Shown piece after piece: positions 4,100 to 28,182 of a DNA stretch of 40,294 nucleotides. A program made the translations under genes and the position numbers. Under the pieces are notes generated by a model. It was given only the letters and a program-made list of their open reading frames with translations, did not search any database and had not been told where the DNA came from. This DNA comes from Eggerthellaceae bacterium (GTDB taxonomy: Bacteria > Actinomycetota > Coriobacteriia > Coriobacteriales > Eggerthellaceae), in assembly GCA_017440565.1 (NCBI GenBank), contig JAFSHA010000167.1, forward strand, positions 1 to 40,294, written 5' to 3'. The first letter of the stretch is position 1. Every line of letters starts with the position of its first letter.

Positions 4100-4101
4100 C
4101 C

Positions 4102-7844: not shown

Positions 7845-8570
7845 TTATTCGACTGCATAGACGATGGTGCGCTCATGGCCGTTCCAGGGGCCGTAGCTGC
7901 ACGTGACGAATGCCTTGATACTCTCAAGATCGGTTAGCTCGCATGGCCTCGCGACGTCGGATTTCTCCCATGTTGCAGCCCACCAGCCATCCAGCTCTTC
8001 TTGGGTTTCGAATCCGAGTACCTTGTACTCGCGGTAAGAGTCGATGACGTCTGCGGCGACGACGGTCAGCACGTATTTCCTCTCAGGTGTCTGGATGAGG
8101 ATTTGTCGGTGTCCGTCGAAGAACCCTTCGTTCGAGTATTTGGCCATCTCCGCGAACATGCTGCCGTCGCTCATGTGGTGGCCGAACACCATGGCAAGGG
8201 GGCTGTCGAACCCCTTCTCGGCACAATCCGCATCTAGGTAGGGGCAGCCGTAGAAGTTCCATTTTCGGTAAACATCATGGCTCAGGTAGTAGGTCGGGTC
8301 AGACGCAGGCGCCTGGCAGATTGGCAGGTCTATGCCGGTTCCGGGGACGGTAATCCAGCCGATGACGTCGGGATTCTGGCTCTTCCAGTAGTCCCAGTCC
8401 ACGGCAGGGAAAGGATCGTCCTCCTCTTGCTCGATGCTGGCCACGGGCGAAGGGTCGACGCGGCCCGCGGTTTCAGAGAACTCCAGGAGCGAGAGCGCTA
8501 GCGCCAGGCCGGAGAGGGTCAAGACGAGACACGCCGTGAAGGCGGCTCTTGCTTTCGTCGCAGCTTTCAT
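7845..8570 (-). CDS. srtB: Class B sortase
   Basis: The product is 241 residues; ATG at 8570 follows AGGAG. One N-terminal membrane segment (about 10-30) anchors it outside-facing. The sortase core starts near residue 55 (DWDYWKSQNPDVIGWITVPGTGIDLPI, typical of class B). The catalytic triad is visible: His in VFGHHM (about 131), Cys in AFVTCSY (about 224) and Arg in GHERTIV (about 234). Sortases cut a sorting signal and join the protein to the cell wall. This is the last gene of the secretion operon and directly follows the VaFE adhesin, its obvious substrate. The adhesin signal is not LPXTG, so a dedicated specificity is likely. Confidence 0.92.
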   Translation of the reverse strand: MKAATKARAAFTACLVLTLSGLALALSLLEFSETAGRVDPSPVASIEQEEDDPFPAVDWDYWKSQNPDVIGWITVPGTGIDLPICQAPASDPTYYLSHDVYRKWNFYGCPYLDADCAEKGFDSPLAMVFGHHMSDGSMFAEMAKYSNEGFFDGHRQILIQTPERKYVLTVVAADVIDSYREYKVLGFETQEELDGWWAATWEKSDVARPCELTDLESIKAFVTCSYGPWNGHERTIVYAVE

Positions 8571-11600: not shown

Positions 11601-11737
11601 CCGATTGTGACGTTGACGCTGCCCGCCGCGAATGCGTTGACGGGCGTCACCACGCAAACGCTCAACGCCAAAGCGAGGCTTATGGCCACGCGAATGATCT
11701 TGGAGGAGACGATCCTCTCCGCTGTCTTTGCTTTCAC
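8636..11737 (-). CDS. VaFE-repeat cell-wall-anchored surface adhesin
   Basis: The product is 1033 residues; GTG at 11737 follows AAGGAGGGG. The order is: signal peptide (cleavage near AFA-AG, residue 38); an N-terminal thioester-type domain with YCADPSAATPSPG (Cys about 68), though the TQXA glutamine motif is not evident; three SpaA/CnaB-like domains (about 190-290, 300-430, 440-570); and three VaFE repeats (about 590-960) marked by LVDTVWYENL, ISDEVSYEGL, LTDTIEYKGL and ending VAFES, VVYEK, VAFEE. Then comes the anchor: a YDKTG-type motif in place of LPXTG, a membrane helix and KRKQ, but with an acidic tail of about 17 residues after it. Such proteins are held rigid by isopeptide bonds. It probably mediates donor-recipient contact in conjugation. 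Confidence 0.9.
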   Translation of the reverse strand: MKAKTAERIVSSKIIRVAISLALALSVCVVTPVNAFAAGSVNVTIGDDIPYAGYSTTHMYADGEVAYCADPSAATPSPGTYSKSSVSDPDLIATMWFSYGAPGFDASMFPDSWYDGSGWSAEKYIVASHVLLSYAYQDSKADAVFGTSGDFEDWARGELLGTTWKSIKASKGKVSTGFEAFCIHTGPGTQVLMSFTWDKGGLKVAKVDSQAGAEPQGDATLSGAKYDIVNSSGKYALVDGRYYASGEVVKTITGHWDGGAGAYIAKTASNALPCGTYTVVESEAPEGYLVSDWSVKAEINSDGQVVDLTSSPCDDDVIRGGVQVTKSDVELGASEALGGNSHDALATGSTLSGIEFTIANASEHKVLVGDKWFEPGDVIETIATAWNDEVGAYTAQTAADELPYGTYTIQETKTNDSYLLTDGTPRTFQVRAEGVLVAGDRYERPLEFSDQVVRNDLEIVKMAEDTNASLQVAFKVTNVSTGESHVLVTDKNGNVSTASSWNKHSSNTNGDDGLLSSESIKASDMDPKAGIWFSLGEDGSSAAVDDGLSALPYGKYVLEELRSDTNEGYDLVTKTFVIERDSTAAKPVWMSLDDKEGPKIQTEETDKADGDHVAQAAEQVTLVDTVWYENLKTDGTQYTLTGTLMVKSTGEPLLDADGNPVTATTTFKARTASGEVELEFTFDGSLLAGEDIVAFESMVSDDIEVAVHADISDEDQTVHFVDIHTTATDQADGDKLVTGTEIVISDEVSYEGLTPGSEYTLEATLVDSETGEPVTMGEGLAEKQVTSTATFVPEEADGTHVVEIAFDGTGLGGKSLVVYEKLFSADVQLASHEDPSDEGQTVTVVEIGTTLVDASDGDHVIVSGKAKLTDTIEYKGLVPGETYTAHGTLMVKSTSLALEDADGKPVTATAEFTPDKPSGTVDVTFEFDASKIEEGVELVAFEECLDVSGNVIAVHQDIEDDGQTVVVDNPDTPKVPDEPGKGYDKTGFDTTMLFAAVVILIAAGAACGIYAIRKRKQPSIESDEDADSETDES

Positions 11738-14459: not shown

Positions 14460-16049
14460 CTAGTGACGCGCCGTCAGGGCGCATGTGAAGTAGTTGACTC
14501 CCGTCGCGATCCTGCACACGTCGCCCGTGTGCGGCTCGTGTATGTACTTGTCGCCGCCGATGTAGATGGCGACGTGGCCGTACCTGTAGAGGATGTCGCC
14601 GGGTTTCGCCTGGGATATGGGTATCTGCCTGAGCTCCTCCTTCTGGTCCTCCGTGTAGTGGCTGATGCGAATGCCCGCCTGCCTGTAGCAGTACTGCGTG
14701 AGCCCGCTGCAGTCCAATCCCTTTCCCGGGGTTGATCCGCCCCAGACGTACGGCACGCCGAGCTGGCTGTATGCGGCGGCGACGATGGTGTTGCCCGCCT
14801 CCTCGCCGGCTTTGAAGTCCTCCAGGCTCAGCCCGTCGAAGCGCCTGAGGCCGTAGGTGTCCATGATCGACTTCAGCGTCTCCACGTAGCTCGAGTCCGT
14901 GGCCCAGCCCGCGTCCTTGAGGCCCTCGGCCATCTTGTCGGAGTCGTGGTTTGCCATGGCCTCCCTGATGAGCGGGTTGTTCGCGTACCTGCCTGCCTGG
15001 AGGAACACGCGGCTCCTGAAGCGGATGCATTCCGCATCCCCCTTGAAGACGATGAACTGGGCGGTGATCGTGTAGTGGCTGCCGTCTGCCGCCTCCTCGC
15101 CGGTCGCCCAGGACGACTTTCCCGCGACCTCGGGAGCGGATGCGTACGATGAGGCCCATTTCATGCCGAAGAGGTTGTGGTCCCTTGTGGCCAGCTGGCT
15201 CATATGGTCGCCTTGGCCGCTCTCGCAGATGATCTGGGCGATCGTGCAGCCTGCGGGGTGCCCGTACTTCTCCTGGGCGTCCAGGGCCGCCTCGACCATT
15301 TCGTAGGTGATGTACGGGGGGAGCCCCTCCATCGCCTGCTTGTTGGCCTCGTTCTCCCAGAAGCCGAAGAGCGCTGAGACAATTTGTCCCACTAGCAGGG
15401 CGCCCAGCACGAAGGCGACGATTCCGGCCACCACTCCTGCGACGGGTATTCCGGCGCTGGCGATGGCCCCTGCGACGCCCGCGGTTCCCTCGGCCGTTGC
15501 CGCCGCCGCGGCAGCCGACGCGTTCGCGCTGGCGACCTGGGTCCCGACGGCCTGGGCGGACATCTCCGCGGAGGCGCCGGCGGCTGCGTCTGCCGAAGCC
15601 TTCGTCGCGCCTGCGGCTCCGTTCGACTTGGCGCGCATCTCCGCGGCCTGCCTGTATGGGTCGGCTGCGGCCTCGGCTTTCCCCGTTGACTTGGGGACCG
15701 TTCCCTGCGAGCCGGCATTCTCCGCCGACTTTGCAGCCTTGCCCGCCTTGCGCGATGCTAACCTCCTCCTGATTGTCCTGCCGCCCTCTGCCGCATCGTA
15801 GACGTCGCGTGAGCCCTCCAGCTCGTCCGAGTCGTCCAGCTCGTCAATGAGCGAAGCGGCGGCCATGCGCCTGAGGCCGAGGCCCGCTGTCGTCTGCTCC
15901 GTGGCGTCCTTGGCCGGCACGCCAACGCCGCTTCCGACGACGCCCTCGCGGAACGCATCCCCGCCGGAGACGACACCGGAGTTGAGGAGGTTCTCCCGTT
16001 CTCCGGCTACCACGTTGTGCATGGGGTCCCTGTCGGGCGATCGCGTCAT
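14460..16049 (-). CDS. Bifunctional peptidoglycan hydrolase (GH73-like plus NlpC/P60), VirB1/CwlT-type
   Basis: The product is 529 residues. ATG at 16049 overlaps the VirB4 stop (ATGA), and GGAGGAAGG lies upstream. Domains are: a charged cytoplasmic N-terminus (1-100); an Ala-rich coiled region (about 110-200); a membrane helix (about 203-230); a glucosaminidase/lysozyme-like domain (about 250-400, with IAQIICESGQGDHMSQLATRDHNLFGMKW); and a C-terminal NlpC/P60 domain (about 420-529) with Cys447 in LDCSGL and His in GHVAIYIG and YIHEP. Proteins like CwlT of ICEBs1 and Tn916 Orf14 cut glycan strands and stem peptides so the secretion channel can cross the wall. Confidence 0.9.
   Translation of the reverse strand: MTRSPDRDPMHNVVAGERENLLNSGVVSGGDAFREGVVGSGVGVPAKDATEQTTAGLGLRRMAAASLIDELDDSDELEGSRDVYDAAEGGRTIRRRLASRKAGKAAKSAENAGSQGTVPKSTGKAEAAADPYRQAAEMRAKSNGAAGATKASADAAAGASAEMSAQAVGTQVASANASAAAAAATAEGTAGVAGAIASAGIPVAGVVAGIVAFVLGALLVGQIVSALFGFWENEANKQAMEGLPPYITYEMVEAALDAQEKYGHPAGCTIAQIICESGQGDHMSQLATRDHNLFGMKWASSYASAPEVAGKSSWATGEEAADGSHYTITAQFIVFKGDAECIRFRSRVFLQAGRYANNPLIREAMANHDSDKMAEGLKDAGWATDSSYVETLKSIMDTYGLRRFDGLSLEDFKAGEEAGNTIVAAAYSQLGVPYVWGGSTPGKGLDCSGLTQYCYRQAGIRISHYTEDQKEELRQIPISQAKPGDILYRYGHVAIYIGGDKYIHEPHTGDVCRIATGVNYFTCALTARH
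15375..15391. repeat. Palindrome of the GGGACAA-TTGTCCC family (site 1)
   Basis: TGAGACAA and TTGTCCCA arms surround a central T, with one mismatch. It lies within the hydrolase coding sequence. It is related to the sites at 17815, 21712 and 22328. Confidence 0.45.
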
Positions 16050-18442
16050 CGGGCGGACCTTCCTCCGCCTCCGAGGGCGTTGACCTCGGAAGGCTTGGTC
16101 GTCAGCAGGTCGTAGATCCTTCCCTTGGGCAGCTCGTTTGTGATCGGCATCCTGGCGCCGCCTGCGACCAGCAGGCCGTCGCCGGGCTTGATTCCGTCGT
16201 CGATGTAGCGGACCTCCTCGTCGGAGAGGTTGAGCGTCTCCGCCCAGAGGTCTCGGTCGACGGTGGACTGCTTGTGGAGCATCAGGTAGTCGGAGTTGAG
16301 GATCATCGTGGAGCCGATGTCGCTTCCCAGCATGAAGCTGGCGTTCTGGGAGAGTCCGGTGGCTACGAGGCCGAACTTGCGGCCCTCCGCCCAGAAGCTC
16401 TCGAAGTACGCGATGACGGCCGGATGCTTGAAGAGGCTCTGAACCTCGTCGATGAAGAGCCAGGTGGTCCTTTTCTCGGCGAAGTTCTGGTACATGCGGT
16501 TGCGCACCTGCTCCAGCGCGGTCAGCATGCCGAAGACCTTCATGTCGGAGTTCAGGTCGTGGAGGTCGATGTTCACCATCGGGGCGTCGAGGGCCACGTT
16601 GGACCTTCGGTTGAAGAACGAGAAGGAGCCCTTGACGTGCCGCTCGTATCGCAGGGCGATGTCTCTGGCAGCCGCCTCCGGCTGCTCCAGGAGGAGGTTG
16701 TAGAAGTCCTCGAGCACCGGGGTGCCCTCGTCGCCGGCCCTGCGGTAGGCCTCTTCCACGCACCTTGCGATGATGGATCGCTCCGCCTGGGTGAGGCCCT
16801 GGTTTCCCTCCGCCATCATCGATGCGGAGAGCGCCAGGAAGGCGTCCACCTTGAAGGCCTTCTGGAGCGGCTCGTTAAGGGATTCCACGTCCTTCGTGTC
16901 GAAGGGGTTCATGAACTGACCCGAGTCGGCTGCAAGCCTGATGCTCACGCCGCCTCCCGCCTCTGCGACCGGGCGTCCCTCACCGGTAGGGTCGATCCAG
17001 ATTCCCTGAGCCTTGTCGCCGTAGAGCATGCGGACCTGCAGCCAGACGCTCTTCTGGGCGTTCGACTTGCCCGTGCCCGGCGTTCCGAAGTCGAATCCCA
17101 TGGGCGAGGGCAGGGATAGCCTGTCCAGGATGGCCAGCGTGTTGGTGATCTTCGACTGTCCGAGGTAGATGCCGCCGGGCTGGTTGATCTCCAGCGATGC
17201 GAAGGGCATCTGCATGGCGATCTGGCCGCTGGTGAGGAGCCTGGTCACGTCACACTTGTTGGTGGCGAAGGGGAGCACGGAGCCCCAGCCCTCCTCTTGT
17301 CGGTAGTAGAGCTTCTCGACGGTGAGCGCAGAGCCCCTGGCAGTGGAGATGATTCTGTCGATTTGCTCGTCGAGCTCCTCCTCGCTCGCCGCGTAGGTGA
17401 ACACGTAGCCGGCGTACTCGAAGAGTCGCTCGTTCTTGTTGCGCAGGAAGTCCAGAAGCTCCTCGGCGTCCGCGCGCGAGTAGCGAAGGGCCGTGGAGGT
17501 CTGCGTGAGGATGATTCCCTTGTTGGCGGCTCGGCTCTTCTGGCCTCGCTCCTCCATGTCCATCCAGTCGATCTTTCCCTGCACCATGTCGATGGCCTTG
17601 TCCTGCGGGATGGGCCTCAGGTGCAGCGAGACGGAGAGCGGGATGGGGAGGTCGACGATGCTCGCGAGGCAGTCGTCCATGAGGATGGATCCGAACGACC
17701 TGATGGCCATGACGCAGCACCATGCGTCGTCGGCCCTGAAGGCGTCGTTGCGGCCGTTGGGCTTGAAGTCGACGGACATGGGCGCCACGAAGTCGAGGCT
17801 CCGCGCCGTCGGGCACTGGGACAAATTGTCCCAGTCGAAGTCGAAGGGGGAAAGCGGGCTCAGCAGGCCGCGGGCTATCCTGAGCCTCTCCGTGCCCTTC
17901 ACGGGCTCCGACTTGCTCTTGATCCTCGCCAGGGCCTGCGTGCAGTCGTTGCGCATGCGGGCGAGCTTCGGAATTGCCGAGTCGATGTCGTCCGCCTTGG
18001 TGGTGAAGGTCAGGTACCTCTGCCTCTTCAGGTTCGAGACGCCCTCGCGCATCTTGTCGTTGAGGATGCGGTTGTACTCCTCGACGTAGTCGTCCAGGCA
18101 GGGGTCGCTCTTTGGGAAGAACGTCCTGTTGCCGATCTCCTCGGCTGGCACGGGCTCGTTGGTGATCGTGACCTGGACGCTGGTGTCCGGGTTGAAGTAG
18201 TTGTAGAGCGCGCTCATGGTGCTGTAGATGTTCTCGCGGGTGTCCTTTCTGGCGCACTGGTAGGTGATGTCGCCGAACTGCACCATCTGGCTGAAGAGGC
18301 CTGGCGCTACCTGGGCGACCCCGTTCTCGAGCATGAGCTCGTATCCGCAGAGGTTGATGGTGCCCTTCTGCCTCTTCTGCTTCTCCTTCTTCTTCTCAGG
18401 GGCGCCTTCGACGCCCTTCCTACGCTTCTTCAGCAGGCTCAT
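16046..18442 (-). CDS. virB4: VirB4/TraE-type conjugation ATPase
   Basis: The product is 798 residues; ATG at 18442 follows GGAG and overlaps the prgI end by 23 bases. The N-terminal half carries the VirB4 domain; the C-terminal ATPase has Walker A DFGTPGTGKSNAQK (about 450-463) and Walker B TTWLFIDEVQ (about 655-664), followed by GLVATGLSQNASFML. It energises assembly and substrate passage at the membrane as a hexamer. The stop overlaps the hydrolase ATG. The conserved order prgI-virB4-hydrolase is typical of Gram-positive ICEs. Nothing is missing. Confidence 0.95.
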   Translation of the reverse strand: MSLLKKRRKGVEGAPEKKKEKQKRQKGTINLCGYELMLENGVAQVAPGLFSQMVQFGDITYQCARKDTRENIYSTMSALYNYFNPDTSVQVTITNEPVPAEEIGNRTFFPKSDPCLDDYVEEYNRILNDKMREGVSNLKRQRYLTFTTKADDIDSAIPKLARMRNDCTQALARIKSKSEPVKGTERLRIARGLLSPLSPFDFDWDNLSQCPTARSLDFVAPMSVDFKPNGRNDAFRADDAWCCVMAIRSFGSILMDDCLASIVDLPIPLSVSLHLRPIPQDKAIDMVQGKIDWMDMEERGQKSRAANKGIILTQTSTALRYSRADAEELLDFLRNKNERLFEYAGYVFTYAASEEELDEQIDRIISTARGSALTVEKLYYRQEEGWGSVLPFATNKCDVTRLLTSGQIAMQMPFASLEINQPGGIYLGQSKITNTLAILDRLSLPSPMGFDFGTPGTGKSNAQKSVWLQVRMLYGDKAQGIWIDPTGEGRPVAEAGGGVSIRLAADSGQFMNPFDTKDVESLNEPLQKAFKVDAFLALSASMMAEGNQGLTQAERSIIARCVEEAYRRAGDEGTPVLEDFYNLLLEQPEAAARDIALRYERHVKGSFSFFNRRSNVALDAPMVNIDLHDLNSDMKVFGMLTALEQVRNRMYQNFAEKRTTWLFIDEVQSLFKHPAVIAYFESFWAEGRKFGLVATGLSQNASFMLGSDIGSTMILNSDYLMLHKQSTVDRDLWAETLNLSDEEVRYIDDGIKPGDGLLVAGGARMPITNELPKGRIYDLLTTKPSEVNALGGGGRSAR
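17815..17835. repeat. Perfect 21-bp palindrome of the GGGACAA-TTGTCCC family (site 2)
   Basis: ACTGGGACAA and its exact reverse complement flank a central A. It lies inside virB4, about 3.9 kb from site 3 and 2.4 kb from site 1. Because it is inside a gene, an operator role is less natural than a spreading-nucleation or recognition site. Confidence 0.6.
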
Positions 18443-18858: not shown

Positions 18859-19077
18859 CTAAGCCGGCATCCATGAGGTGTCGAGCTGGCCGAAGTAGAC
18901 CGCGGCGGCGATGATGATCGCGCCGCCGGCGATCGTCGCGATGCCAGCCTCCATGCCCTCGCCACCGCCTCCGCGGTTTCCGATGGACCTGCCGAGCTGC
19001 ACCGCTCCCCAGACAACGAGGAATCCGCCCAGGAACGTCACGCAGCCTGTGACGAGGGTGATGATCTTTGCAAGCAT
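18859..19077 (-). CDS. Maff2/VirB2-like small membrane protein
   Basis: The product is 72 residues; ATG at 19077 follows AAAGGAGG. There are two membrane helices (IITLVTGCVTFLGGFLVVWGAV and GIATIAGGAIIIAAAVYFG) joined by a short Gly-rich loop (RGGGGEG). The spacing of the Trp-Gly and Gly-Gly motifs fits the Maff2 family of Gram-positive ICEs, which sits where VirB2/TrbC pilin subunits sit in other systems. A pilin-like channel role is inferred. It carries the CTTCCAC leader hairpin, so it may be separately controlled within the operon. Confidence 0.75.
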   Translation of the reverse strand: MLAKIITLVTGCVTFLGGFLVVWGAVQLGRSIGNRGGGGEGMEAGIATIAGGAIIIAAAVYFGQLDTSWMPA

Positions 19078-19084
19078 GTGAATG

Positions 19085-19124
19085 CCTCCTTTGCGTCTTT
19101 GGCGCCGAGGGTGGAAGGGGCGCC
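19085..19124 (-). promoter_or_regulatory. Leader hairpin (CTTCCAC loop) plus AGACGCAAAGGAGG before the pilin-like gene
   Basis: On the minus strand GGCGCC (19124-19119) pairs with GGCGCC (19106-19101) around a loop with CTTCCACCCTC. AGACGCAAAGGAGG at 19098-19085 follows, 7 bases before ATG 19077. This is the fourth copy of the shared leader. Confidence 0.65.
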
Positions 19125-19165
19125 TTGTGTTGCGTGATAAGATTGCAGTGCGGAGCGCGCGAGCG

Positions 19166-19212
19166 CTCCTTTGCGTCTAGGCGGCGGCAGCCGCGCCGAG
19201 GGTGGAAGCTCG
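19166..19212 (-). promoter_or_regulatory. Orphan copy of the leader, without a following gene
   Basis: On the minus strand stem CGAG/CTCG (19212-19197) presents CTTCCACC, and AGACGCAAAGGAG follows at 19178-19166. No start codon with an open frame comes after it; only the second leader 70 bases on has one. It may mark a gene lost between virD4 and the pilin gene. Confidence 0.5.
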
Positions 19213-19263
19213 ACCCGGCCTTGTTGCCAGAGGCATTGCCGCTGCCGTTTCCTTGCTCAGAGA

Positions 19264-21108
19264 TCACCCCCTCATCCTGTTTGCATACGCTCCGAAGTCG
19301 AAGGGCGTGCTGTGCCTGGCCCCCTTGTGCCCTGGCTCGACCTCATCCCACCGAGGATGCTGCGCCGCGTCGTACTTGTCGTCCTTGAACGGGTAGGTGC
19401 CCGCTATGAGCAGCAGGGCCTTCCGCCTTGACAGGCGGCCCACCTCGTCGGGTAGCATCAGCGGTCGCTCGAATATGGTCCTGTTCACGGTGGTCGACTT
19501 GTTGGCGCCCTCGGTGTCGTTGAGGGTGAAGGAGACGATGGTCTGGTTTCCCAGCATCTTGGAGATCTCCTCGTTGGTGCCGTAGAGCGTCGACCCCAGG
19601 AAGAGCGTCGTGTCGCAGCAGGCCCTGATGGACAGGGCCTTCTCCTCGCCGTAGGTGCCCTTCAGCTGCTCGAACGACTGCAGGATCATGGACATGGAGA
19701 CGTTCCTGCTTCGGATGACGGCGATGAAGCGGTCGATGTCGGGCAGCTTGCCGATGTTGGCGAACTCGTCGAACACCAGGTGGACCGGGGTGGGGAGCTT
19801 GCCGCCGTGGTCGATGATCGCCGCGTCGCAGAGCTCGTTCACGGCCTGCCACATGAGCATGGCGAACAGGAAGTTGAAGGTTCCGCGCGTGTCTGGCATC
19901 GATGCGAAGACGACGGTCCTCTGCCCTGCGTCGCCCATCTTGTCCAGGTGGAGCTCGTCGTCTGCCAGGAGGTTCTGCACGTTGTCGGCCATCATAGGCA
20001 GGCACCGGGTGTTGCAGCTGATGATGATCGACTTGAGGGTCTCCCCGGCGGCGGTCTTGAAGCGCTTGTATGCGTTGAGGGCGAAGTCCCTGGAAGGGTC
20101 AGCGGGCTCTCGGACCTGCTCCCAGCGCACGGTGGAGCTACCGTTGGTGAACGCCCGCGAGTTCTCGTCGAAGGGCCTCTCGTCGCCTGCGGCGACCAGG
20201 CGCTTGCCCGTCTCAAGCTCGTGGAACAGCAGGTCGAGGGGGCTCATGTAGGATTCGTTTCCCTCGCGGGCCTCAGCCAGCGACAGCAGGGTGAGCATAC
20301 CCGGGAGGTTCCTGTCCTCGGGCGGGCAGTGGTGGATCAGGTACGCGATGAGCGCCGTGTAGAGGAGACGCTCCGCGTTCTCCCAGAACGGGTCTCCCGT
20401 GTGCTCGGCGTCTCCAGTGGTGTTGGTGATGAGGCACTCCACGATGGCCAGCACGTCCACGTCGGTGCGCACGTATGCCAGGGGGTTGTAATGGCTCGAG
20501 GTCTCCATCCTGACGAGGTCGAAGTTGCGGATCCTGTAGCCTGCGGCCTCGAACATCCACCCTGTGGATTCTATGAGCGTTCCCTTCGGGTCGGTTACCA
20601 GGTAGCTGGCGTTCATCTGCATCAGCAGCGGAAGCACGTGGCTCCTGGTCTTGCCCGTTCCGGGTGTTCCGACGACGCAGATGTTGCGGTTGCGGTCCGT
20701 CTCCAGGTCGAAGTCGGACCTGGAGACGGGGATCCCGATGGAGCTTGTCAGCGGGATGTTCAGGTCCGGCTCGTCCTGGTTCATGAATGCTTTGCCCTCT
20801 TCGATGCTGCCCCAACGGGAGGAGCCGTGCTCCTCGCCGAGCCGGAAGGTCCCCCCTCGGAGAGCCTGGTGCACCCAGATGCCCCAGATGGCGCATGCTG
20901 CCAGCATTCCCGCCAGCGGTGCGAGAGCGTTCGCGTGCATGATCCCTCCGCCCGCTAGCCAAGCGGGCAGCTGCAGCAACGCCTCCATGGGATCAAGGGA
21001 GCCTCCCGGAAGGTCGAGGAGGCTCCCCACGAAGAGGAAGCCTGCGAGGGCTGCGCAGGCTGAGATGAGGGCGACTATCGCCACGGTATGTTTGTCGAAG
21101 GGCGTCAA
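19264..21108 (-). CDS. virD4: VirD4/TraG-type coupling protein
   Basis: The product is 614 residues. I place the start at TTG 21108, which overlaps the upstream stop (TTGA) and has GAGGGG 4 bases ahead. Two N-terminal membrane helices (about 8-30 and 60-80) are followed by the ATPase: Walker A VGTPGTGKTRSHV (about 145-157) and Walker B VHLVFDEFANIG (about 438-449), then the ILQSFEQLKGTYG helix and TLFLGSTLYGTNEEISKMLG typical of TraG/VirD4. It brings the relaxase-DNA complex to the channel. The order DUF3801-virD4-pilin is standard for this ICE type. Confidence 0.93.
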   Translation of the reverse strand: MTPFDKHTVAIVALISACAALAGFLFVGSLLDLPGGSLDPMEALLQLPAWLAGGGIMHANALAPLAGMLAACAIWGIWVHQALRGGTFRLGEEHGSSRWGSIEEGKAFMNQDEPDLNIPLTSSIGIPVSRSDFDLETDRNRNICVVGTPGTGKTRSHVLPLLMQMNASYLVTDPKGTLIESTGWMFEAAGYRIRNFDLVRMETSSHYNPLAYVRTDVDVLAIVECLITNTTGDAEHTGDPFWENAERLLYTALIAYLIHHCPPEDRNLPGMLTLLSLAEAREGNESYMSPLDLLFHELETGKRLVAAGDERPFDENSRAFTNGSSTVRWEQVREPADPSRDFALNAYKRFKTAAGETLKSIIISCNTRCLPMMADNVQNLLADDELHLDKMGDAGQRTVVFASMPDTRGTFNFLFAMLMWQAVNELCDAAIIDHGGKLPTPVHLVFDEFANIGKLPDIDRFIAVIRSRNVSMSMILQSFEQLKGTYGEEKALSIRACCDTTLFLGSTLYGTNEEISKMLGNQTIVSFTLNDTEGANKSTTVNRTIFERPLMLPDEVGRLSRRKALLLIAGTYPFKDDKYDAAQHPRWDEVEPGHKGARHSTPFDFGAYANRMRG

Positions 21109-21695
21109 CGTCCCCTCGCTTGGTCGATGACCTCGCGGCTGCGGCCATGGGCGCGTTCTGCGAGCTCTGCCGATTTCCTGAAGGCCTCGACTCGGTCCTG
21201 GAGCGGCTCCTTGTCGGGGTCTCCAAGCGTTTCGCCGTCCCTGGCCGCTGCTCGGCCCTTTTCCTTGGAGAGCTGCTGCTCGGCCTTCTTGCAGGCCCTC
21301 GTGGTCTCCGTTGCCAGCTCGTCGAAGCATCTGGCGACCTCGGGCGCGTCGTCCACCCTGAAGATGAGGTACGACTTCTCGCCCTCGTCGAAGAATTCGT
21401 GCTGGAGCGCCTCGCGTTCAAGCTTCGAGTCGATGATCTCCTTGATGGTGTCGAACTCGGGGAGGCCTTTGAACTCATGCAGGTTCAGCTTCGCCCACTC
21501 GGGCGCCTTGCTTGCCTGCTCGACGCCTGCGGTGATTGCCGATTGCTCGCTTCCGATCTCGCCGACGGCGTTCCTGAAGGCCATGGAGACCCTCGCTGCG
21601 CTATGGGTCATGGCGGCCTGCCCGGCCTCCTGGCCCAGGCGGAGCATCCAGTCGAACAGCTTCTCGCCGGATTCGTCTCCGAAGTCGCTTGGCAT
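21105..21695 (-). CDS. DUF3801/PcfB-like protein
   Basis: The product is 196 residues; ATG at 21695 follows GGGAGG. The core WMLRLGQEAGQAAMTHSAARVSMAFRNAV, then EWAKLNLHEFKGLPEFDTIKEIIDSKLE and YLIFRVDDAPEVARCFDELA, fits DUF3801 proteins, which include PcfB of pCF10. PcfB is thought to be an accessory factor between the relaxosome and the coupling protein. The C-terminus is charged and helical. It is translationally coupled to virD4. A GGGRCAA-TTGTCCC palindrome lies just upstream of its start. Confidence 0.8.
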   Translation of the reverse strand: MPSDFGDESGEKLFDWMLRLGQEAGQAAMTHSAARVSMAFRNAVGEIGSEQSAITAGVEQASKAPEWAKLNLHEFKGLPEFDTIKEIIDSKLEREALQHEFFDEGEKSYLIFRVDDAPEVARCFDELATETTRACKKAEQQLSKEKGRAAARDGETLGDPDKEPLQDRVEAFRKSAELAERAHGRSREVIDQARGR

Positions 21696-21711
21696 GATTC
21701 CTCCCTAGATG

Positions 21712-21734
21712 GACTGGGGCAATTTGTCCCAGTC
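21712..21734. repeat. Palindrome of the GGGRCAA-TTGTCCC family (site 3)
   Basis: GACTGGGGCAA and TTGTCCCAGTC arms surround a central T, with one mismatch in 11 pairs. It is intergenic between the DUF3801 gene (start 21695) and the stop of the small XRE gene (21736). It could be an operator for the downstream transfer genes or a partition or recognition site. Confidence 0.6.
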
Positions 21735-21735
21735 G

Positions 21736-22005
21736 TCAGCGTTTCTCTTTCCTTTGAGGTCGCGTGGATTCCGGTAGATCGCCAAGACCCACGAGGAAGT
21801 ACTCGGTGAACTCGATCTTGAACAGCCAGGTGATCTGCACCAGCTCGGTTGCCGACATGGCCACCTCTCCGCGCAGCTTCTTCCCGACGTTCGAGTCGCT
21901 CAGCCCAAGGCGCCTTGCGAGCTCGGTCGTCGACATGCCGCTTCGGTCCTTGTAGCTGTTGATCACCCCCAGGTACTGCCTGGTTATCGGGTCTAGGTGT
22001 TCCAT
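21736..22005 (-). CDS. Small XRE-family helix-turn-helix protein
   Basis: The product is 89 residues. ATG at 22005 is favoured because GGAGGA lies 5 bases upstream; ATGs a few codons further up lack this spacing. The HTH is MSTTELARRLGLSDSNVGKKLRG (about residues 24-46). A short helical tail and a basic end (STRPQRKEKR) follow. It heads the transfer operon and so may control it; its binding site may be the palindrome at 21712 (inference). Confidence 0.75.
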   Translation of the reverse strand: MEHLDPITRQYLGVINSYKDRSGMSTTELARRLGLSDSNVGKKLRGEVAMSATELVQITWLFKIEFTEYFLVGLGDLPESTRPQRKEKR

Positions 22006-22354
22006 CGCTTCCTCCATCACTCACGGCTGCGAGTTGCCGTAGCCGCGGCCCATACAGGCCCGGTGATGCTGGGAAGAGTAACGGTGCGCTTCATGTCTGT
22101 GGCGAAATCCGTCATGCGATGACGGAAACCCGTCACGAGGTTTCGGATCAGGCGGGCGCATCGCTTCGGGCAGCCTCTTGGCTGAACCCGCGCCTGTGCA
22201 CAGTAATACAAGCATGAACTCTATAGAAAACCGCATGTCCGGGTATCCACTCTATGGGACAGCGGTTCCAAGAAGCGCCAGATGGGACGGTGTTTTTTCA
22301 AAGAGCCGGATGCCTTGAGGGCTCCTTGCCGGGGAAAATTGCCCCGGCGCGCCC
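22006..22354. other. Non-coding gap with TGRCG palindromes and a GC hairpin
   Basis: These 349 bases lie between the small XRE gene and rep. At 22100-22114 is TGGCG-N5-CGTCA and at 22120-22135 TGACG-N6-CGTCA, matching sites inside the rep gene. A hairpin GCCGGGG / CCCCGGC with a 7-base loop (22328-22348) just after the rep stop resembles a terminator but lacks a T tract; its sequence also resembles the GGGRCAA-TTGTCCC family. I see no credible gene here. The gap may hold the transfer-operon promoter and part of a replication origin. Confidence 0.5.
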
Positions 22355-23509
22355 CTAGCCGGGCTTGAACTTCTCGTCACGGTAGGCCTGGTAGTTGTGC
22401 ATCGCGTCGCCCATGTGCCCGAACCCGCCTCTGAAGTCCCAGGCTCTTGCCCAGAGTTCCTGGGCCCTCGGGTCGGACTCGCGCCACGCGGCTTCTTGCT
22501 CGCGGATTGCAGCCTCCCTCTCCATGAGCTCGGTTTCGGCCTTTTGGGCCGCTCTCTGCCGCTCCAGGCGGGCCCTCGCATCTCTCCGCTCCGAGATCGC
22601 CGATTCCAGGCTCAGTCCTGCGATCGGTCTGTTGGGCTTCAGCCAGGTGGACAGGGTGGCGATGAATCGTTGCTCGGTACCGGCGTTCTCCTGCTGGATC
22701 ACGTAGCGTCGGTAGGTCTTGGCAAGGAAGCCCTCATCGACCTCCTCGCGAACGAGTGTGTCGCCCCACACCCTCCATGCCTTTTCCTTGGCGCACTGGG
22801 ATGCCTTGGAACGGGGGACCTTCTCCCAGGCCCTCTCGAACTCATCGCTTGTCTCTGCCAGCCCTCCATCCTCCTTGTCACAAGAAAGTCTTTCTGGCTG
22901 GTTGGTTGGATGGTCAGAAGATAATCTCTCTGTAGTCTTTGAGTAGTCTTTGTATATGTCTGGCGAATTTTCGCCATACCTATGACGAAATTCCGACATA
23001 GGGGTACCCGGATCAGGACCTTCTCCGTCATAGCTATGACGTTTTTTCGTCATAGGGTCAGGGGCTGGTGCTTGCTCGGGGAAGGTCAGCTCGTAGATGC
23101 GTTTGGGCATGATGGCGATGAACATGACGTTTCCCATCATGCCCGCGCCGCTCTCCACGTTTCGGAATATGCGTCTGATCGCCCCCAGTTCCTCGAGCCT
23201 TACCACGGCGTCCTTGGCCTGCCGCTTGCTGATGCCGAAATGCTCGGAGAGCTGCTCGTAGCTGCGCTGCAGGTAGTCGGCGGCGAAGCGCTTCTGGTAG
23301 GCGACAACGTCGCCCGTGTACTCGTCGCGAACCTCTCTGGGACGGTACCAGTAGAGAACGTCCGAGAGTATGTTTATTGCCACGAGGTCGGCCTTGCCCG
23401 ACGGCGTCGTTATGGTCTTGTACCAGGTCGCGGGTATGACGTTGCCCGCGACGGCCATGGCTGCCATGGCGTCCACGGCTTCGTTTCCGGTCAGCTTTCT
23501 TGGAATCAT
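22355..23509 (-). CDS. Rep-like replication protein with N-terminal winged helix
   Basis: The product is 384 residues, start ATG 23509 with a weak GAGAAG ahead. Residues about 75-130 form a winged-helix DNA-binding region (YEQLSEHFGISKRQAKDAVVRLEELGAIRRIFR) of the kind seen in plasmid and phage initiators. A polar linker (about 145-215) follows, then a helical domain around WRVWGDTLVREEVDEGFLAKTYRRYVIQQENAGTEQRFIATLSTWL, resembling phage replisome-organiser or DnaD-like proteins. The tail is a charged coiled region. The DNA for the linker carries three TGRCG-N6-CGNCA palindromes, so the gene may contain its own origin, as in lambda O. It lies in an operon behind the RHH gene. Confidence 0.7.
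   Translation of the reverse strand: MIPRKLTGNEAVDAMAAMAVAGNVIPATWYKTITTPSGKADLVAINILSDVLYWYRPREVRDEYTGDVVAYQKRFAADYLQRSYEQLSEHFGISKRQAKDAVVRLEELGAIRRIFRNVESGAGMMGNVMFIAIMPKRIYELTFPEQAPAPDPMTKKRHSYDGEGPDPGTPMSEFRHRYGENSPDIYKDYSKTTERLSSDHPTNQPERLSCDKEDGGLAETSDEFERAWEKVPRSKASQCAKEKAWRVWGDTLVREEVDEGFLAKTYRRYVIQQENAGTEQRFIATLSTWLKPNRPIAGLSLESAISERRDARARLERQRAAQKAETELMEREAAIREQEAAWRESDPRAQELWARAWDFRGGFGHMGDAMHNYQAYRDEKFKPG
22961..23055. repeat. Iteron-like palindromes inside the rep gene (candidate replication origin)
   Basis: There are three copies of TGRCG-N6-CGNCA: TGGCG-AATTTT-CGCCA at 22961-22976, TGACG-AAATTC-CGACA at 22983-22998, and TGACG-TTTTTT-CGTCA at 23037-23052. The last extends to a perfect CTATGACG / CGTCATAG pair at 23034-23055. 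CGTCATAG at 23026-23033 adds another half site. They make two similar peptide motifs in the Rep linker (KKRHSYDGE and EFRHRYGEN). Two more copies lie at 22100-22135. Confidence 0.6.
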
Positions 23510-23516
23510 GCGCTTC

Positions 23517-23996
23517 TCAGTTCTTGAAGAATCCCTTTGGCACCTTTCGACGCCTCCTTGCCGGCGTCACTAGCTCGGTGCTCACGGGTACCTGCCTCGC
23601 GCTTGGCGGAATCAGGGATCCCAGGTCGGAGACCTCGCTCATCTTGAGGTTCTCCTTGCCTTTGGCGGCTGCCATATCCTTGTCGTGCATCTCCGCGAGC
23701 AGCTCCTTGATGGCCTGCGACAGCTCGAGCAGCCTCAGGCCGACCTCGCTCGCGTCAGAGAGCCTGCCTAGCTCGTCTGCGATTCTGCACAGCTCGGCGG
23801 ACATTGTCTTTTGGACCCTGATGGTTGGCCGTACGTGGATGTCCCTGCAGAGCACCCTCGATATCAGATAGTCCTGCTTTGTCATGTCAGAGAAGGCTAC
23901 GAGCGACTCGATCTCACGGTTCTCGTCGTCGGACACCCTGAATGCGATGGTCTTGTTCCTGAAGCGTCCCTCTCTGTCGTTGTTGGGCAGGGACAT
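23517..23996 (-). CDS. RHH mobilization/relaxosome-like accessory protein
   Basis: The product is 159 residues; ATG at 23996 follows GAGAGGAG. NKTIAFRVSDDENREIESLVAFSDMTKQDYLISRVL is the ribbon-helix-helix pattern common to small Firmicutes and Actinomycetota mobilization proteins. A helical middle follows (IADELGRLSDASEVGLRLLELSQAIKELL), then a basic tail with PARRRRKVPKGFF. It lies between int and rep, and the start is 3 bases from the int stop. It may be a second relaxosome factor, or a copy-number or excision regulator. The RHH fold is fairly sure; the role is inferred. Confidence 0.65.
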   Translation of the reverse strand: MSLPNNDREGRFRNKTIAFRVSDDENREIESLVAFSDMTKQDYLISRVLCRDIHVRPTIRVQKTMSAELCRIADELGRLSDASEVGLRLLELSQAIKELLAEMHDKDMAAAKGKENLKMSEVSDLGSLIPPSARQVPVSTELVTPARRRRKVPKGFFKN

Positions 23997-23998
23997 GG

Positions 23999-25084
23999 CT
24001 ACTCCTCTCCCTGATCGCCCATGAGCGCGTCGAGGACGTCGACCACGTTCTGCTGCTGGCTGGGGAAGAGGTGCGCGTAGTTGTAGGTGATGTGGACGCT
24101 CTCGTGGCCAAGGCGGTCCGCGATGGCCAGCGCCGGGAAGCCGAGGTTGATGAGCAGGGAGACATGGCTGTGCCTGAGGTCATGCACCCTGATCTGTTTG
24201 ACCCCGGCCGCCCGAGATGCCGTCTTCATGGTGTTGGCCAGAGCGCACTTCGTGAACGGGAAGAGCCTGTCGTCCGGTTTCACCATCGTCTCGTAGGCCA
24301 TGAACTCGCGAAGCTCCTCGATGAGGAACTGCGGAAGCTTCACGTCGCGTACGGACTTGCTCGTCTTCGGAGGGCCGATGACGTCCTCGCCCTTGAGCCT
24401 TGCGTAGCTTTTGGTTATGTGGAGGATGCCGTTTTCCAGGTCGATGTCTGCCGGCGTGAGCGCGAGGAGCTCGCCCTCTCGTATTCCGCACCAGTAGAGG
24501 ATTTCGAACGCGTAGAAGTGCGTCGGCTTGTCGGCCAGCTCCTCGGAGAACCTGAGGTATTCGTCTGTGGTCCAGAAGAGCATCTCGTTGGCCTTCTTCT
24601 CGCCGAGCCTGCCGGCCTCGAGCACCGGGTTGGCTCTCAGGCCGTAATGCCTCACGGCATGGTTGAAGATGGCGGATAGCTGATTGTCGACGGTCCTGAG
24701 ATAGGTCCTGGAGTACGGCGTTCCGTCCTCCTTTGCTCTCTCTAGCAGGGAGTTCTGCCATGCGAGCACGTCCTTCGAGGTGATGGAGGCGAGCCTCTTC
24801 TTACCGAAGAAGGGGATCAGCTTGGTCTTGATGAGGTGTTCCTTTTGGTCCCAGGTCGTTACCCTCACTCTCGGCTTGACGTCTCTCGCATACACCTCGA
24901 AGAAGGCCTCGAACGTCATGTCGACCGTCTCCCTGACATCTGCCAGGAAGTTCCTTTCCCAGGCGAGCGCCTCGGACTTCGTCTTGAAACCGCGCTTGGT
25001 GGTGTTCACGAGCTTGCCGGAGGCGTCCTCGATGTGGAGGGCAACCCTCCAGGTGCCCCTCTCCTTGTCCCTGTGGACGCTCAT
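23999..25084 (-). CDS. int: Tyrosine recombinase integrase
   Basis: The product is 361 residues; ATG at 25084 overlaps the xis stop (ATGA) with GGAGGACC upstream. An AP2-like arm-binding N-terminus (about 1-50, ERGTWRVALHIEDASG) is followed by a SAM-like core-binding domain (about 55-150) and the catalytic domain. Catalytic residues are visible: R202 (CGIREGE), a lysine at 240-243 (PPKTSKS), H301 and R304 (HDLRHSH), H327 (LGHES) and Y336 (YAHLF). It is of the Tn916/phage type. It inserts and excises the element, here at the guaA 3' end. Arm-type repeats are present in the right end at 26004 and 26071. Confidence 0.95.
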   Translation of the reverse strand: MSVHRDKERGTWRVALHIEDASGKLVNTTKRGFKTKSEALAWERNFLADVRETVDMTFEAFFEVYARDVKPRVRVTTWDQKEHLIKTKLIPFFGKKRLASITSKDVLAWQNSLLERAKEDGTPYSRTYLRTVDNQLSAIFNHAVRHYGLRANPVLEAGRLGEKKANEMLFWTTDEYLRFSEELADKPTHFYAFEILYWCGIREGELLALTPADIDLENGILHITKSYARLKGEDVIGPPKTSKSVRDVKLPQFLIEELREFMAYETMVKPDDRLFPFTKCALANTMKTASRAAGVKQIRVHDLRHSHVSLLINLGFPALAIADRLGHESVHITYNYAHLFPSQQQNVVDVLDALMGDQGEE

Positions 25085-25290
25085 TTCAGGTCCTCCTCGA
25101 TCTCCACTTCGGAAAGGAAGCCGAAGAACCTTTGCTCGTAGTAGTGTCGGTTGGTCTTTCCCTTAATGACGAAGCAGCCGTCCTCGGCGAGCTCGCTGTT
25201 GAGCTGCCTGATGATGGAATAGGCGTACTGGACGCTCACCCCGAGGTCCTCCGCTATCTCCTTGGCGGTTATGAGTCGCGTGTTTTCCAC
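25081..25290 (-). CDS. xis: Excisionase-like winged-helix protein
   Basis: The product is 69 residues. GTG at 25290 is taken as start because AAAGGAG lies 5 bases upstream; longer in-frame starts would run through the operators. TRLITAKEIAEDLGVSVQYAYSIIRQLNSEL (about 4-34) is a MerR/Xis-like HTH, followed by a wing-like GCFVIKGKTNRHYYEQRFFG. It is co-translated with int (ATGA overlap at 25081-25084). Such proteins steer Int to excision, or act as small regulators. It is divergent from the XRE gene over two operators. Confidence 0.75.
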   Translation of the reverse strand: MENTRLITAKEIAEDLGVSVQYAYSIIRQLNSELAEDGCFVIKGKTNRHYYEQRFFGFLSEVEIEEDLK

Positions 25291-25309
25291 ATGTGCTCCT
25301 TTCTCATAA

Positions 25310-25329
25310 CCGATACGTATTTGTATCGG
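25310..25329. promoter_or_regulatory. Operator palindrome CCGATAC-N6-GTATCGG upstream of xis-int
   Basis: The arms and spacing are identical to the parAB operator at 1620-1639 (spacer GTATTT). It is 20 bases upstream of the xis GTG, so it should overlap the xis-int promoter on the minus strand. Confidence 0.75.
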
Positions 25330-25349
25330 TGTACAATTTATGAGAATAG

Positions 25350-25367
25350 CGATACAATTTTGTATCG
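25350..25367. promoter_or_regulatory. Operator palindrome CGATAC-N6-GTATCG overlapping the XRE promoter
   Basis: Arms CGATAC and GTATCG flank AATTTT. TACAAT at 25353-25358 may be the -10 for the XRE gene, with TGTACA at 25330-25335 as a modest -35. That would place the operator on the promoter and allow autorepression. It lies 21 bases from the operator at 25310. Confidence 0.7.
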
Positions 25368-25418
25368 GCAAGGAAATGTTTTGGAATCCATATTTGGTAT
25401 TACAGCTAGGAGTGGCTA

Positions 25419-25850
25419 ATGGGACTGGCCCAGAACCTCAAGAGAATGAGAGCCGCAAAGGGGCTCCAGCAGTCAGAGCTCGGCGATGCGATTGGCGTCT
25501 CTGAGATCACCATCAGGAAGTACGAGGCGGGAGAGCGCTGTCCAAAGCAGCCGGGGATCGAGGCGCTTGCCAACGCGTTGGGGGTTTCTGCGGAGGCTCT
25601 CTGCAAGGACGTCGGCTCTACTCCTACCGAGGCCGTACAGGCCCTGTTCGACATCGAGGAGAAGCTTGGTCTGAAACCCATTAAGGTCGACGGCATGGTT
25701 GTGCTTGCCATGCCCGCTGATCCGGAGACACCGGAGCAGGAGGCATTTGCCAGGGCCATGCATCACTGGTACAGGAATCGTCGTGATTTCGACGAGGGCG
25801 AGCTGACGCCAGACGAGTATTTTGCCTGGAAGGACTCCTTCAAGGCTTAG
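25419..25850 (+). CDS. XRE-family transcriptional regulator (candidate master repressor)
   Basis: The product is 143 residues; ATG at 25419 follows TAGGAG. The N-terminal cro/C1-type HTH is LKRMRAAKGLQQSELGDAIGVSEITIRKYEAGERCPKQPGIEALANALGVS (about 8-58). The C-terminal half is a short unrecognised domain (EAVQALFDIEEKLGLKPIKVDGMVVLAMP, then HHWYRNRRDFDEGELTPDEYFAWKDSF). It has no ImmA-type protease partner in the window. It is divergent from xis-int across two GATAC-N6-GTATC operators and is the obvious candidate for binding them, which would also give it control of parAB. A terminator follows. Confidence 0.85.
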   Translation: MGLAQNLKRMRAAKGLQQSELGDAIGVSEITIRKYEAGERCPKQPGIEALANALGVSAEALCKDVGSTPTEAVQALFDIEEKLGLKPIKVDGMVVLAMPADPETPEQEAFARAMHHWYRNRRDFDEGELTPDEYFAWKDSFKA

Positions 25851-25874
25851 TCCCAAAGGAACATATGAACCGTG

Positions 25875-25900
25875 AAAAGGCCTGTTTATCAGGCCTTTTT
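25875..25900 (+). terminator. Rho-independent terminator of the XRE gene
   Basis: AAAAGGCCTG and CAGGCCTTTT form a 10-bp stem around TTTAT, followed by a T run. It lies 24 bases after the stop at 25850. Confidence 0.85.
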
Positions 25901-25904
25901 CTTC

Positions 25905-26267
25905 GTGACAAAAATGTGACAAAAACTTAGATAGAAGTTCAAAAGCAATGACGATACGTTTCTGTATCCCTCGATAAGCAACATGTGGCTTTGATGTTCA
26001 ATCAGCAAAACCGCAGGTAAAGATACGAATTTGTATCTATGCTTCATTTTTTCAGTAATGCCTTTTCATTAGCATAACCGCAGGTAAAAAGGTGAAATAG
26101 CCTGTAAGCCATTCGTTGTGAAGTCATTTTATGTTGTCACGAATTCACTGATTTGTTTGTAATACCGATACTTTAAAAGAACGTAAAAGCATAAGAAAAC
26201 GCCCCTTGAACTGGTGTTTTCAAGGGGCGATAAATTGTCATAAACCGATACGATTTTGTATCGCTGA
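25905..26267. repeat. AT-rich element end with operator copies and arm-type repeats
   Basis: This is gene-free, AT-rich DNA. GATAC-N6-GTATC palindromes lie at 25953-25968, 26022-26037 (AGATAC/GTATCT arms from 26021 to 26038) and 26246-26263. An 18-bp direct repeat with one mismatch (AGCAWAACCGCAGGTAAA) is at 26004-26021 and 26071-26088. A 10-bp direct repeat GTGACAAAAA is at 25905-25914 and 25916-25925, one helical turn apart. The repeats have the look of integrase or Xis arm sites at an attachment end. Confidence 0.6.
26199..26230 (-). terminator. Terminator-like hairpin downstream of guaA
   Basis: The 11-bp arms CGCCCCTTGAA and TTCAAGGGGCG lie around an 8-base loop. In the guaA direction they are followed by GTTTTCTT, so this can end guaA transcription. 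If the boundary is at the guaA stop, the hairpin belongs to the element and replaces the native terminator. Confidence 0.7.
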
Positions 26268-26290
26268 TTACTCCCACTCAATCGTGCCAG
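26264..26290. other. Inferred attachment junction at the guaA 3' end
   Basis: Element-type repeats stop at 26263 and the guaA coding end starts at 26268. The integrase and excisionase lie beside this junction. The core sequence should be duplicated at the left end, outside the window; no second copy was noticed here, so limits are approximate. Confidence 0.45.
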
Positions 26291-27248
26291 TCGGCTTCGG
26301 GGTGAGGTCGTAGCACACGCGGCAAATGCCGGGGACTTCGGCCAAAATGCGGGCGGTAATCTTCTTCAGCAAAGCCCAGTCAATCTCAACGACATCAGCC
26401 GTCATGGCGTCCACCGTGTTGACCGCGCGAATGATGGCCGGCCACTCGTAGGCGCGCTTGTCGTCACGCACGCCCGTGGCACGGAAGTCGGGAACCGCCA
26501 CGAAGTACTGCCAAATGCTGCCCGCAAGGCCAGCCTCGGCAATTTCCTCACGCAGAATGGCGTCGGCCTCGCGCAGCGCCGCCAAACGATCGCGCGTAAT
26601 GGCACCCAGGCAACGCACGCCCAAACCCGGGCCGGGGAACGGCTGGCGGTCAACCATGGAAGCCGGCAAGCCCAGCTCGCGACCAACCACGCGCACCTCG
26701 TCCTTGAACAGCAGCTTCACCGGCTCAACCAGCTCGAACTGCATGTCGTCGGGCAGACCGCCCACGTTGTGGTGCGCCTTCACGCCGTCAGACTCCAGAA
26801 TGTCGGGGTAGATGGTGCCCTGCGCCAAGAAGCTCACGCCCTCAAGCTTGCGCGCCTCCTCCTCGAACACGCGAATGAACTCGGCGCCGATAATCTTGCG
26901 CTTCGTCTCGGGCTCTTCCACACCCGCCAGCAAATCAAGGAAGCGATCCGTAGCATCCACGTACACCAGGTTCGCATCCAACTCGTCGCCGAACACCTGG
27001 CACACCTGCTCGCTCTCGCCCTTGCGCATGAGGCCATGATTCACATGCACGCAGGTAAGCTGCTTGCCGATAGCCTTGATGAGAAGCGCAGCAACAACCG
27101 AGCTGTCAACGCCACCAGAAAGAGCCAGCAGAACCTTGCCGTCGCCGACCTGCGCGCGAACAGCTTCCACCTGCTCTTCGATGAACGCCTGAGCGAGCTC
27201 GGGCGTAGTAATGCGCACCATATCGTCAGGACGCTTATTGGGATCCAT
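26268..27248 (-). CDS. guaA: GMP synthase, ATP-pyrophosphatase subunit only
   Basis: The product is 326 residues; ATG at 27248 follows GGAGGAGG. The PP-loop [11 protein letters not shown] (about 41-51) activates XMP with ATP; the C-terminal dimerisation domain ends in the conserved KPTGTIEWE. Most bacterial GuaA proteins are about 510-520 residues, with an N-terminal class I glutaminase of about 190 residues. Here that domain is absent and no glutaminase gene is next to it, as in archaeal split enzymes. It must use a partner encoded elsewhere, or ammonia. The 3' end appears to be intact and is the insertion site of the element. Confidence 0.9.
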
Positions 27249-27420
27249 GAGGGCCTCCTCCACAGATTGAGTACAACGGAACAATTATAGCCACATCGCC
27301 GCTAGCGTACGCTTTTTTTCGTAAGCGCACCCACTCAATCGGCGAAAAATCCCCTGTTTTAACAGCAGCGAAACACGCGGCCAAGCGCGCGGGAAAACGC
27401 AGCCGGACACCCGTCAGACG

Positions 27421-28182
27421 CTACATCCCCAAAACAAGTTTTACCAGCAAAAGCACGAAAGCCAGCGCGATAAGCGGCTTCATGATGCGCGCGCCGTCCT
27501 TGATGACCAGCCCCGCTCCCAGCCATGCTCCAACCATGCCGCACAAGCCTCCCGCCAACCCAAGCGGAACGCACACCTGCCCGTTCACGAGGAACACCAC
27601 CGTCGCCGCCGTATTCGTCACCAGGTTAACCACCTTGGCATGCGAGCTGGCATACCGCGCGCCCAGCTGAGCCACCAAGCACAGTGCGATCACGTAAAAC
27701 GTCCCCGCACCCGGCCCGTAAAACCCATCATAGGCGGCAATCACGAAACTGCACGCACACGCCGTCACGTACGTGCGCCGCGTAAGAACCAGCTCCTTCT
27801 CCTCGCCGTCGACGAACGAATCCTTCTTGAACACCACGAACGCCACCACGGGAAGCACCAGCACGATGATGTAGTTGAGAATCTCCTCGGAAACCGACAG
27901 CGAAAAATGCGATCCCACAAGGGAGCCTGCCACCGCGCAAATCACGGTAGGTACAACCAGTCTCAACTTCAGCAACCCGCTTTTCGCATACCGAAGCGTC
28001 GCCACGGAAAGGCCGCAGATCGCCTGCAGCTTGTTGGTGCCAATGGCCATGTGCGGCGGCAAACCCACCAGCAACATGGCAGGCAACGAGACAAGCCCGC
28101 CGCCCCCCACCGACGCATTCATAATGCCGACGAGGAAGCAAATCGGGCACACGATCAAAAACGATGTCACCGAAAGTTCCAT
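27421..28182 (-). CDS. TauE/SafE-family (TSUP) membrane permease
   Basis: The product is 253 residues from ATG 28182; a TTG at 28200 is also possible and neither has a good Shine-Dalgarno. Some eight hydrophobic segments are visible. The family motifs are MNASVGGGGLVSLPAMLLVGLPPHMAIGTNKLQ near the N-terminus and a second half-repeat around YDGFYGPGAGTFYVIAL and AKVVNLVTNTAATVVFLVNG. TSUP proteins export or import sulfite, sulfonates or sulfoacetate; the substrate cannot be read from the sequence. It stands upstream of guaA on the same strand with a 170-base gap. Confidence 0.85.
   Translation of the reverse strand: MELSVTSFLIVCPICFLVGIMNASVGGGGLVSLPAMLLVGLPPHMAIGTNKLQAICGLSVATLRYAKSGLLKLRLVVPTVICAVAGSLVGSHFSLSVSEEILNYIIVLVLPVVAFVVFKKDSFVDGEEKELVLTRRTYVTACACSFVIAAYDGFYGPGAGTFYVIALCLVAQLGARYASSHAKVVNLVTNTAATVVFLVNGQVCVPLGLAGGLCGMVGAWLGAGLVIKDGARIMKPLIALAFVLLLVKLVLGM

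Follow-up and report, generated by a model that had tools for sequence, protein, structure and literature searches.

A predicted lambda-O-like replication origin inside the rep gene of an integrative and conjugative element from Eggerthellaceae

We analysed a 40,294-nt stretch of DNA (the window) from a gut bacterium of the Eggerthellaceae (assembly GCA_017440565.1, contig JAFSHA010000167.1, positions 1-40,294, forward strand). On the plus strand, profile matches (E-values in brackets) identified a ParA-type ATPase at 1762-2529 (PF13614, 3.4e-36), a ParB-type protein at 2439-3455 (PF02195, ParB_N, 6.5e-8) and a MobA/VirD2-type relaxase at 3898-5403 (PF03432, 1.9e-14). On the minus strand lie genes for a TraG/VirD4-type coupling protein at 19264-21330 (PF02534, 3.8e-54), a 384-aa replication initiator, Rep, at 22355-23509, a NikA-like mobilisation protein at 23517-23996 (PF21983, 3.1e-9) and a tyrosine integrase at 23999-25084 (PF00589, 3.5e-20, plus arm and SAM-like domains). 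Integrase, relaxase, coupling protein and T4SS genes (PrgI) are thus all found in the window by profile matches, and a VirB4-type ATPase at 16046-18442 gave a weak match. The initial annotation had called this element an ICE with parAB, and the tyrosine integrase, relaxase, TraG-type coupling protein, ParA and ParB_N domains bear out both labels. Other cargo includes a large VaFE-repeat surface protein (8636-11737) beside a sortase gene (7845-8570), both within the ICE, and an AAA_14/DUF4143 ATPase gene (6395-7624) that adjoins the relaxase region.

The ICE is probably inserted at the 3′-end of guaA, where a probable attachment site lies at 26268-26284 with the core TCCCACTCAAT from 26272. In a related element of Eggerthellaceae genome G102, the core TCCCACTC[AG]AT is found at both ends, at 138551 and 173991. 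Because these copies are about 35.4 kb apart, the window, which contains the guaA 3′-end while the opposite end of the ICE lies beyond the contig, is without roughly the far 10 kb of the element. The distal portion of the G102 element carries the type I restriction-modification genes hsdM, hsdS and hsdR (locus L254, 1212-7672). Positions 508-23537 of the window align with a G102 contig (C5) with an overall identity of 95%. Identity reaches about 100% immediately downstream of rep but falls to about 78% within rep and to 69% near the integrase; the rep-mob-int module seems, from this alignment, to have been exchanged en bloc. Six GATAC-N6-GTATC dyads (1622, 25312, 25351, 25953, 26022 and 26247) lie upstream of parA, between the integrase/xis side and an XRE regulator gene (25419-25850), and on to the guaA end. 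They are placed alike in G102 and Gordonibacter and probably serve as repressor operators, as integrase arm sites or as both. A scan for RNA families in 19000-27500 found none, the RNA fold of the intergenic leader was ordinary (z -1.2), and a DNA search of a plasmid collection returned no match.

The rep product matched the phage family phrog_270 ('replication initiation protein', 3.8e-22), phrog_391 ('O-like', 8e-7) and phrog_678 (4e-4), and lambda O likewise matches phrog_391 and phrog_678. No Pfam family scored above its cut-off, and neither RepA_N (PF06970) nor, at E up to 1, Phage_rep_O (PF04492) matched Rep, whereas lambda O itself matched the latter at 5.7e-36. Direct profile comparison of Rep with lambda O gave no significant pairwise match, a PDB sequence search gave GntR/AsnC-type HTH hits alone, with weak E-values, and a fold search of solved structures gave nothing below 0.001. 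The AlphaFold model consists of a confident N-terminal winged helix-turn-helix, a low-confidence, disordered linker (residues 148-217) and a helical C-terminal part. The profile match, an iteron array in the linker-coding DNA and an adjoining AT-rich tract, three features of the lambda-O-like initiators (phrog_270/391/678), are all present, and Rep is a lambda-O-like initiator of phage type with a winged helix. The neighbours of rep are the NikA-like and integrase genes rather than a helicase or loader gene, an adjacency that is common in the phage relatives and not strictly defining; the scanned ORFs of the window and of the distal portion of the G102 element included no recognisable gene for a helicase or a helicase loader. 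Just past the rep stop codon, a near-perfect palindrome, GCCGGGGAAAATTGCCCCGGC, at 22328-22348 may be a terminator but has no clear U run.

The repeats reported in the initial annotation are present as placed, with exact TGNCG-N6-CGNCA matches at 22961, 22983 and 23037 inside rep and at 22120 downstream, and an N5 copy at 22100. Overlooked there were the TAT/ATA that extends each half-site, a further half-site at 23026-23032 and the AT-rich tract at 22913-22957. The array in the middle of rep (minus strand) forms three dyads; of its TATGNCG/CGNCATA half-sites, six are good and one is poorer. Dyad A, CTATGACG-N6-CGTCATAG, occupies 23033-23056 (core 23037-23052) and is adjoined by the extra half-site CGTCATA (23026-23032), which is kept in all four ICEs compared below. 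Dyad B1, CTATGACG-N6-CGACATAG, lies at 22979-23002 (core 22983-22998), and dyad B2 at 22958-22979 (core TGGCG-N6-CGCCA, 22961-22976), 22 bp from B1. On the rep 3′-end side the dyads are adjoined by the 45-bp tract of about 11-bp repeats, ATACAAAGACTACTCAAAGACTACAGAGAGATTAT (22913-22957, minus strand), which at 33% GC is one of four stretches as AT-rich in 1-23509. Both dyads and tract sit in the DNA that encodes the disordered linker of Rep.

A loose consensus with one mismatch occurred 33 times in the whole window against 31 expected, and the motif count alone proves nothing, since 40 kb of sequence will contain many chance matches to such a consensus. The exact N5-6 matches are clustered, with five of the ten in the window falling within 1 kb; at least three matches in any 1 kb arose in 2 of 200 second-order Markov simulations. 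Within rep, three dyads were observed against 0.27 expected, and none of 2000 protein-preserving codon shuffles reached three. Similarly, the seven TATGNCG/CGNCATA half-sites counted in rep, one of which falls outside the array near 23433, compare with 1.55 expected (0/2000 protein-preserving shuffles). Both dyads and half-sites exceeded protein-preserving shuffles in all four ICEs. Strict direct-repeat periodicity was not significant in the ICE copies of rep, because the array is interrupted and dyadic.

We compared four ICE copies of rep, namely that of the window, two from Gordonibacter pamelaeae 7-10-1-b and that of G102. At conserved residues, codons were identical in 92% of pairs over dyad A and its adjacent half-site, 91% over dyads B and 89% over the AT-rich tract; the figure was 42% for the spacer between iterons A and B, and 65% and 60% for the remainder of rep. 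Permutation of codon units gave p = 5e-5 for the whole region, 0.006 for the iterons alone and 0.007 for the tract alone. Some dyads vary symmetrically among the ICEs, as dyad A does, from TGACG/CGTCA to TGGCG/CGCCA. Judged from these codon comparisons, the iteron array and the AT-rich tract are constrained at the DNA level, independently of the protein. Next to the tract lies a right flank, TTCTGACCATCCAACCAACCAGCCAGAAAGACTTTCTTG (22850-22912, minus strand). The lambda ori shows its parts in the same order, with iterons, a similar AT-rich tract and then a right flank resembling the TCTGACCAGCCAGAAA...CTTTCT of the ICE. A local alignment of ICE and lambda from the AT-rich tract onwards scored 52, against 46 for the best of 1000 shuffles, while conservation of the right flank among the ICEs was not significant by itself (p = 0.19).

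The same arrangement recurs in the phage relatives. A 22-24-bp linker repeat was significant beyond protein-preserving shuffles in 26 of 34 non-redundant homologues, which are mostly phages, and nearly all the phage linkers carry the same TACTACAGAGA tract after the repeat array. Their repeat sequences vary, yet the adjacent tract ATACAGAGATTACTACAGAGA recurs; the ICE tract is more degenerate than that of the phages. In Geobacillus phage PT9.1, whose Rep is 44% identical, TGACG-N6-CGTCA dyads are found at the equivalent place. Glutamate codons in the tract of 30 phage genes were GAG 58 times and GAA once, as against 256 GAG and 444 GAA elsewhere, which indicates that the DNA is kept and not the peptide alone. 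The exact DNA pattern of two tract units occurred in at least 120 viral stretches, and among the 80 viral matches listed all were in one reading frame of an ORF. Those proteins with readable N-terminal parts resemble helix-turn-helix replication proteins, and the matches of the 46 proteins scanned were mainly to replication initiation, O-like or helicase-loader families. We also observed that the DNA pattern ACAGAGANTACTACAGAGANTAC marks replication-initiator genes across many phage families (viral loci L119-L198), its frame constant where seen, and it should be useful as an origin finder. Among 23 homologous loci from a phylum scan, the strict tract pattern used gave no match. A search of literature accessible without subscription found no paper mentioning the TACTACAGAGA tract in a replication-initiator context.

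The iteron sequence appears to follow the recognition helix of the initiator. The predicted recognition helix of Rep, SKRQAKDA (aa 94-101, by its position in the HTH; codons 23207-23230, minus strand), belongs to the class [KE]R[QS][AV][KR]D[AS] that is matched to TGACG repeats: TGACG/TGGCG arrays accompany six of six helix types of this class and 0 of 22 other types, and phages outside the class carry other repeats. The trait changes about six times on the tree, and independent pairs agreed in 5/5 cases (p = 0.06), for a rule that was formed post hoc, after inspection of the data. Among newly fetched phages, for which the prediction was fixed beforehand, there was no new member of the helix class; four of the five other helices were without TGACG, and a near-class helix, TKRQASDA, came with three half-sites. 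This helix-iteron pairing, together with the near-constant AT-rich tract, makes origin recognition and opening testable by swapping parts between relatives.

Given this arrangement, we consider it likely, on sequence evidence, that the rep gene of the guaA-inserted ICE contains its own origin of the lambda-O kind, bound by Rep and captured from a phage replicon. DNA-level conservation, the phage-wide arrangement and the helix-repeat matching lend good support to the proposal of the initial annotation that an origin lies inside rep as in lambda O; its inclusion of the downstream repeats in that origin does not stand equally well, since these may be an operator. After excision of the ICE, Rep dimers would use their N-terminal winged helix to contact the dyads at 22958-23056, and the resulting nucleoprotein complex would strain and open the tract at 22913-22957, the probable strand-opening element (DUE). 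Rep would then recruit the host replicative helicase, bidirectional theta-type copying would ensue, and ParA/ParB would help to retain the circle. Rep binding, strand opening, helicase recruitment, the theta mode and copy number are the parts of this scheme that we infer. The element has an integrase, an att core at guaA, parA and parB, so a plasmid-like phase of the excised ICE is plausible, and after leaving the chromosome it is probably able to replicate as a small plasmid would.

The downstream repeats bear on a different reading of the dyads. A pair of TGACG-type dyads at 22100-22135 (motif matches) lies downstream of rep and upstream of the next operon, and is retained, with some bases altered, in the four ICEs. 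The minus-strand gene of a 94-aa Cro/C1-type HTH regulator (21736-22020; PF13443, 3.2e-5) follows directly downstream and is present in all four ICEs; an ORF at 21608-22024, considered as the gene at this place, is in the wrong frame. This pair may be an operator, of Rep or of the regulator. In our judgement Rep binding there is slightly the likelier, with a little better than an even chance, and autoregulation by the 94-aa protein has roughly one chance in three. If the dyads as a whole were operators, by which Rep or the regulator controls transcription of rep and the transfer operon without origin function, the pair upstream of the regulator gene would be accounted for, as would the dyad symmetry, which is typical of operators. 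However, phage loci with the same in-gene array have their dyads in rep only and showed no significant match to the regulator among those examined, and operators would leave the AT-rich tract, its GAG codon bias and the family-wide linker array unexplained; we therefore regard this reading as improbable.

We rate it slightly less improbable, though still unlikely, that the origin is left over, as a relic, from a phage replicon once captured, in an ICE that replicates by relaxase-driven rolling circle from oriT. A relaxase is present, and rolling circle from oriT, known from several well-studied ICEs (PMC7433901), is the described mode for ICEBs1, ICESt3, Tn916, R391 and ICEclc (PMC7433901, PMC4489591). 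A relic is hard to reconcile with the intact Rep frame, with purifying selection on the origin at silent sites in four ICEs and with the keeping of ParA and ParB. Rolling circle from oriT may nevertheless operate alongside the Rep origin, so that both modes coexist. The linker of Rep is disordered, and that of many relatives repetitive, so the repeats could in principle follow simply from peptide repetition or codon usage in a linker of low complexity; this is very improbable and is already refuted at the sequence level by the codon comparisons and shuffles, as protein-preserving shuffles reproduce neither the dyads (0/2000), nor the periodicity (26/34 genes), nor the GAG bias. Going beyond the preferred reading of a Rep-bound origin in this ICE, we tentatively suggest, as a possibility somewhat short of probable, that the TACTACAGAGA tract is a strand-opening/helicase-loading element general to the lambda-O-like group, kept as DNA while the iterons follow the recognition helix, and that the ICE adopted a phage replicon of this sort in complete form, though not the phage loader, in order to be maintained as a plasmid is.

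The closest parallel is the lambda origin in gene O and in lambdoid O genes, where the linker-coding part contains dyad iterons and, after them, an AT-rich tract, and the iterons are bound by the N-terminal domain of the initiator (PMC7466680); binding by Rep is the predicted counterpart, and the tract and right flank of the ICE are locally similar in DNA sequence to those of lambda. Unlike lambda, the element is conjugative and integrative rather than a phage, its iterons are of the TATGNCG type, a P-type loader gene was not found, and Rep is without a match to Phage_rep_O. The initiators of Geobacillus phage PT9.1, Bacillus phage PM1 and Acinetobacter phage IME-AB2 (PHROG 270) belong to the same protein family as Rep and have 22-23-bp iterons at the equivalent place, in most cases with the TACTACAGAGA tract; unlike the ICE, PT9.1 and IME-AB2 have a helicase or loader gene beside rep. 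The RepA_N initiators (pSK41) also have Rep boxes central in the rep gene, in DNA encoding a dispensable linker between two domains (PMC5703833), and the N-terminal domain of Rep has a weak fold match to the solved Rep structures 5kbj and 4pt7, but there is no sequence match to PF06970 and the repeats differ. SGI1 and the pSAM2-type AICEs are likewise integrated elements with a dedicated initiator (PMC7433901, PMC3218068); unlike this ICE, they use RepA_C/PriCT or RepSA, RepAM and Prim-pol initiators, and the oriV of SGI1 lies downstream of rep, whereas the candidate origin here lies inside it. No element of this kind was reported from 275 actinobacterial genomes in a survey whose profiles included Phage_rep_O (PMC3218068). 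An intragenic lambda-type origin in an ICE is the best explanation of the array; if true, a conjugative Eggerthellaceae element with a phage-type theta origin would represent another route to plasmid-like persistence.
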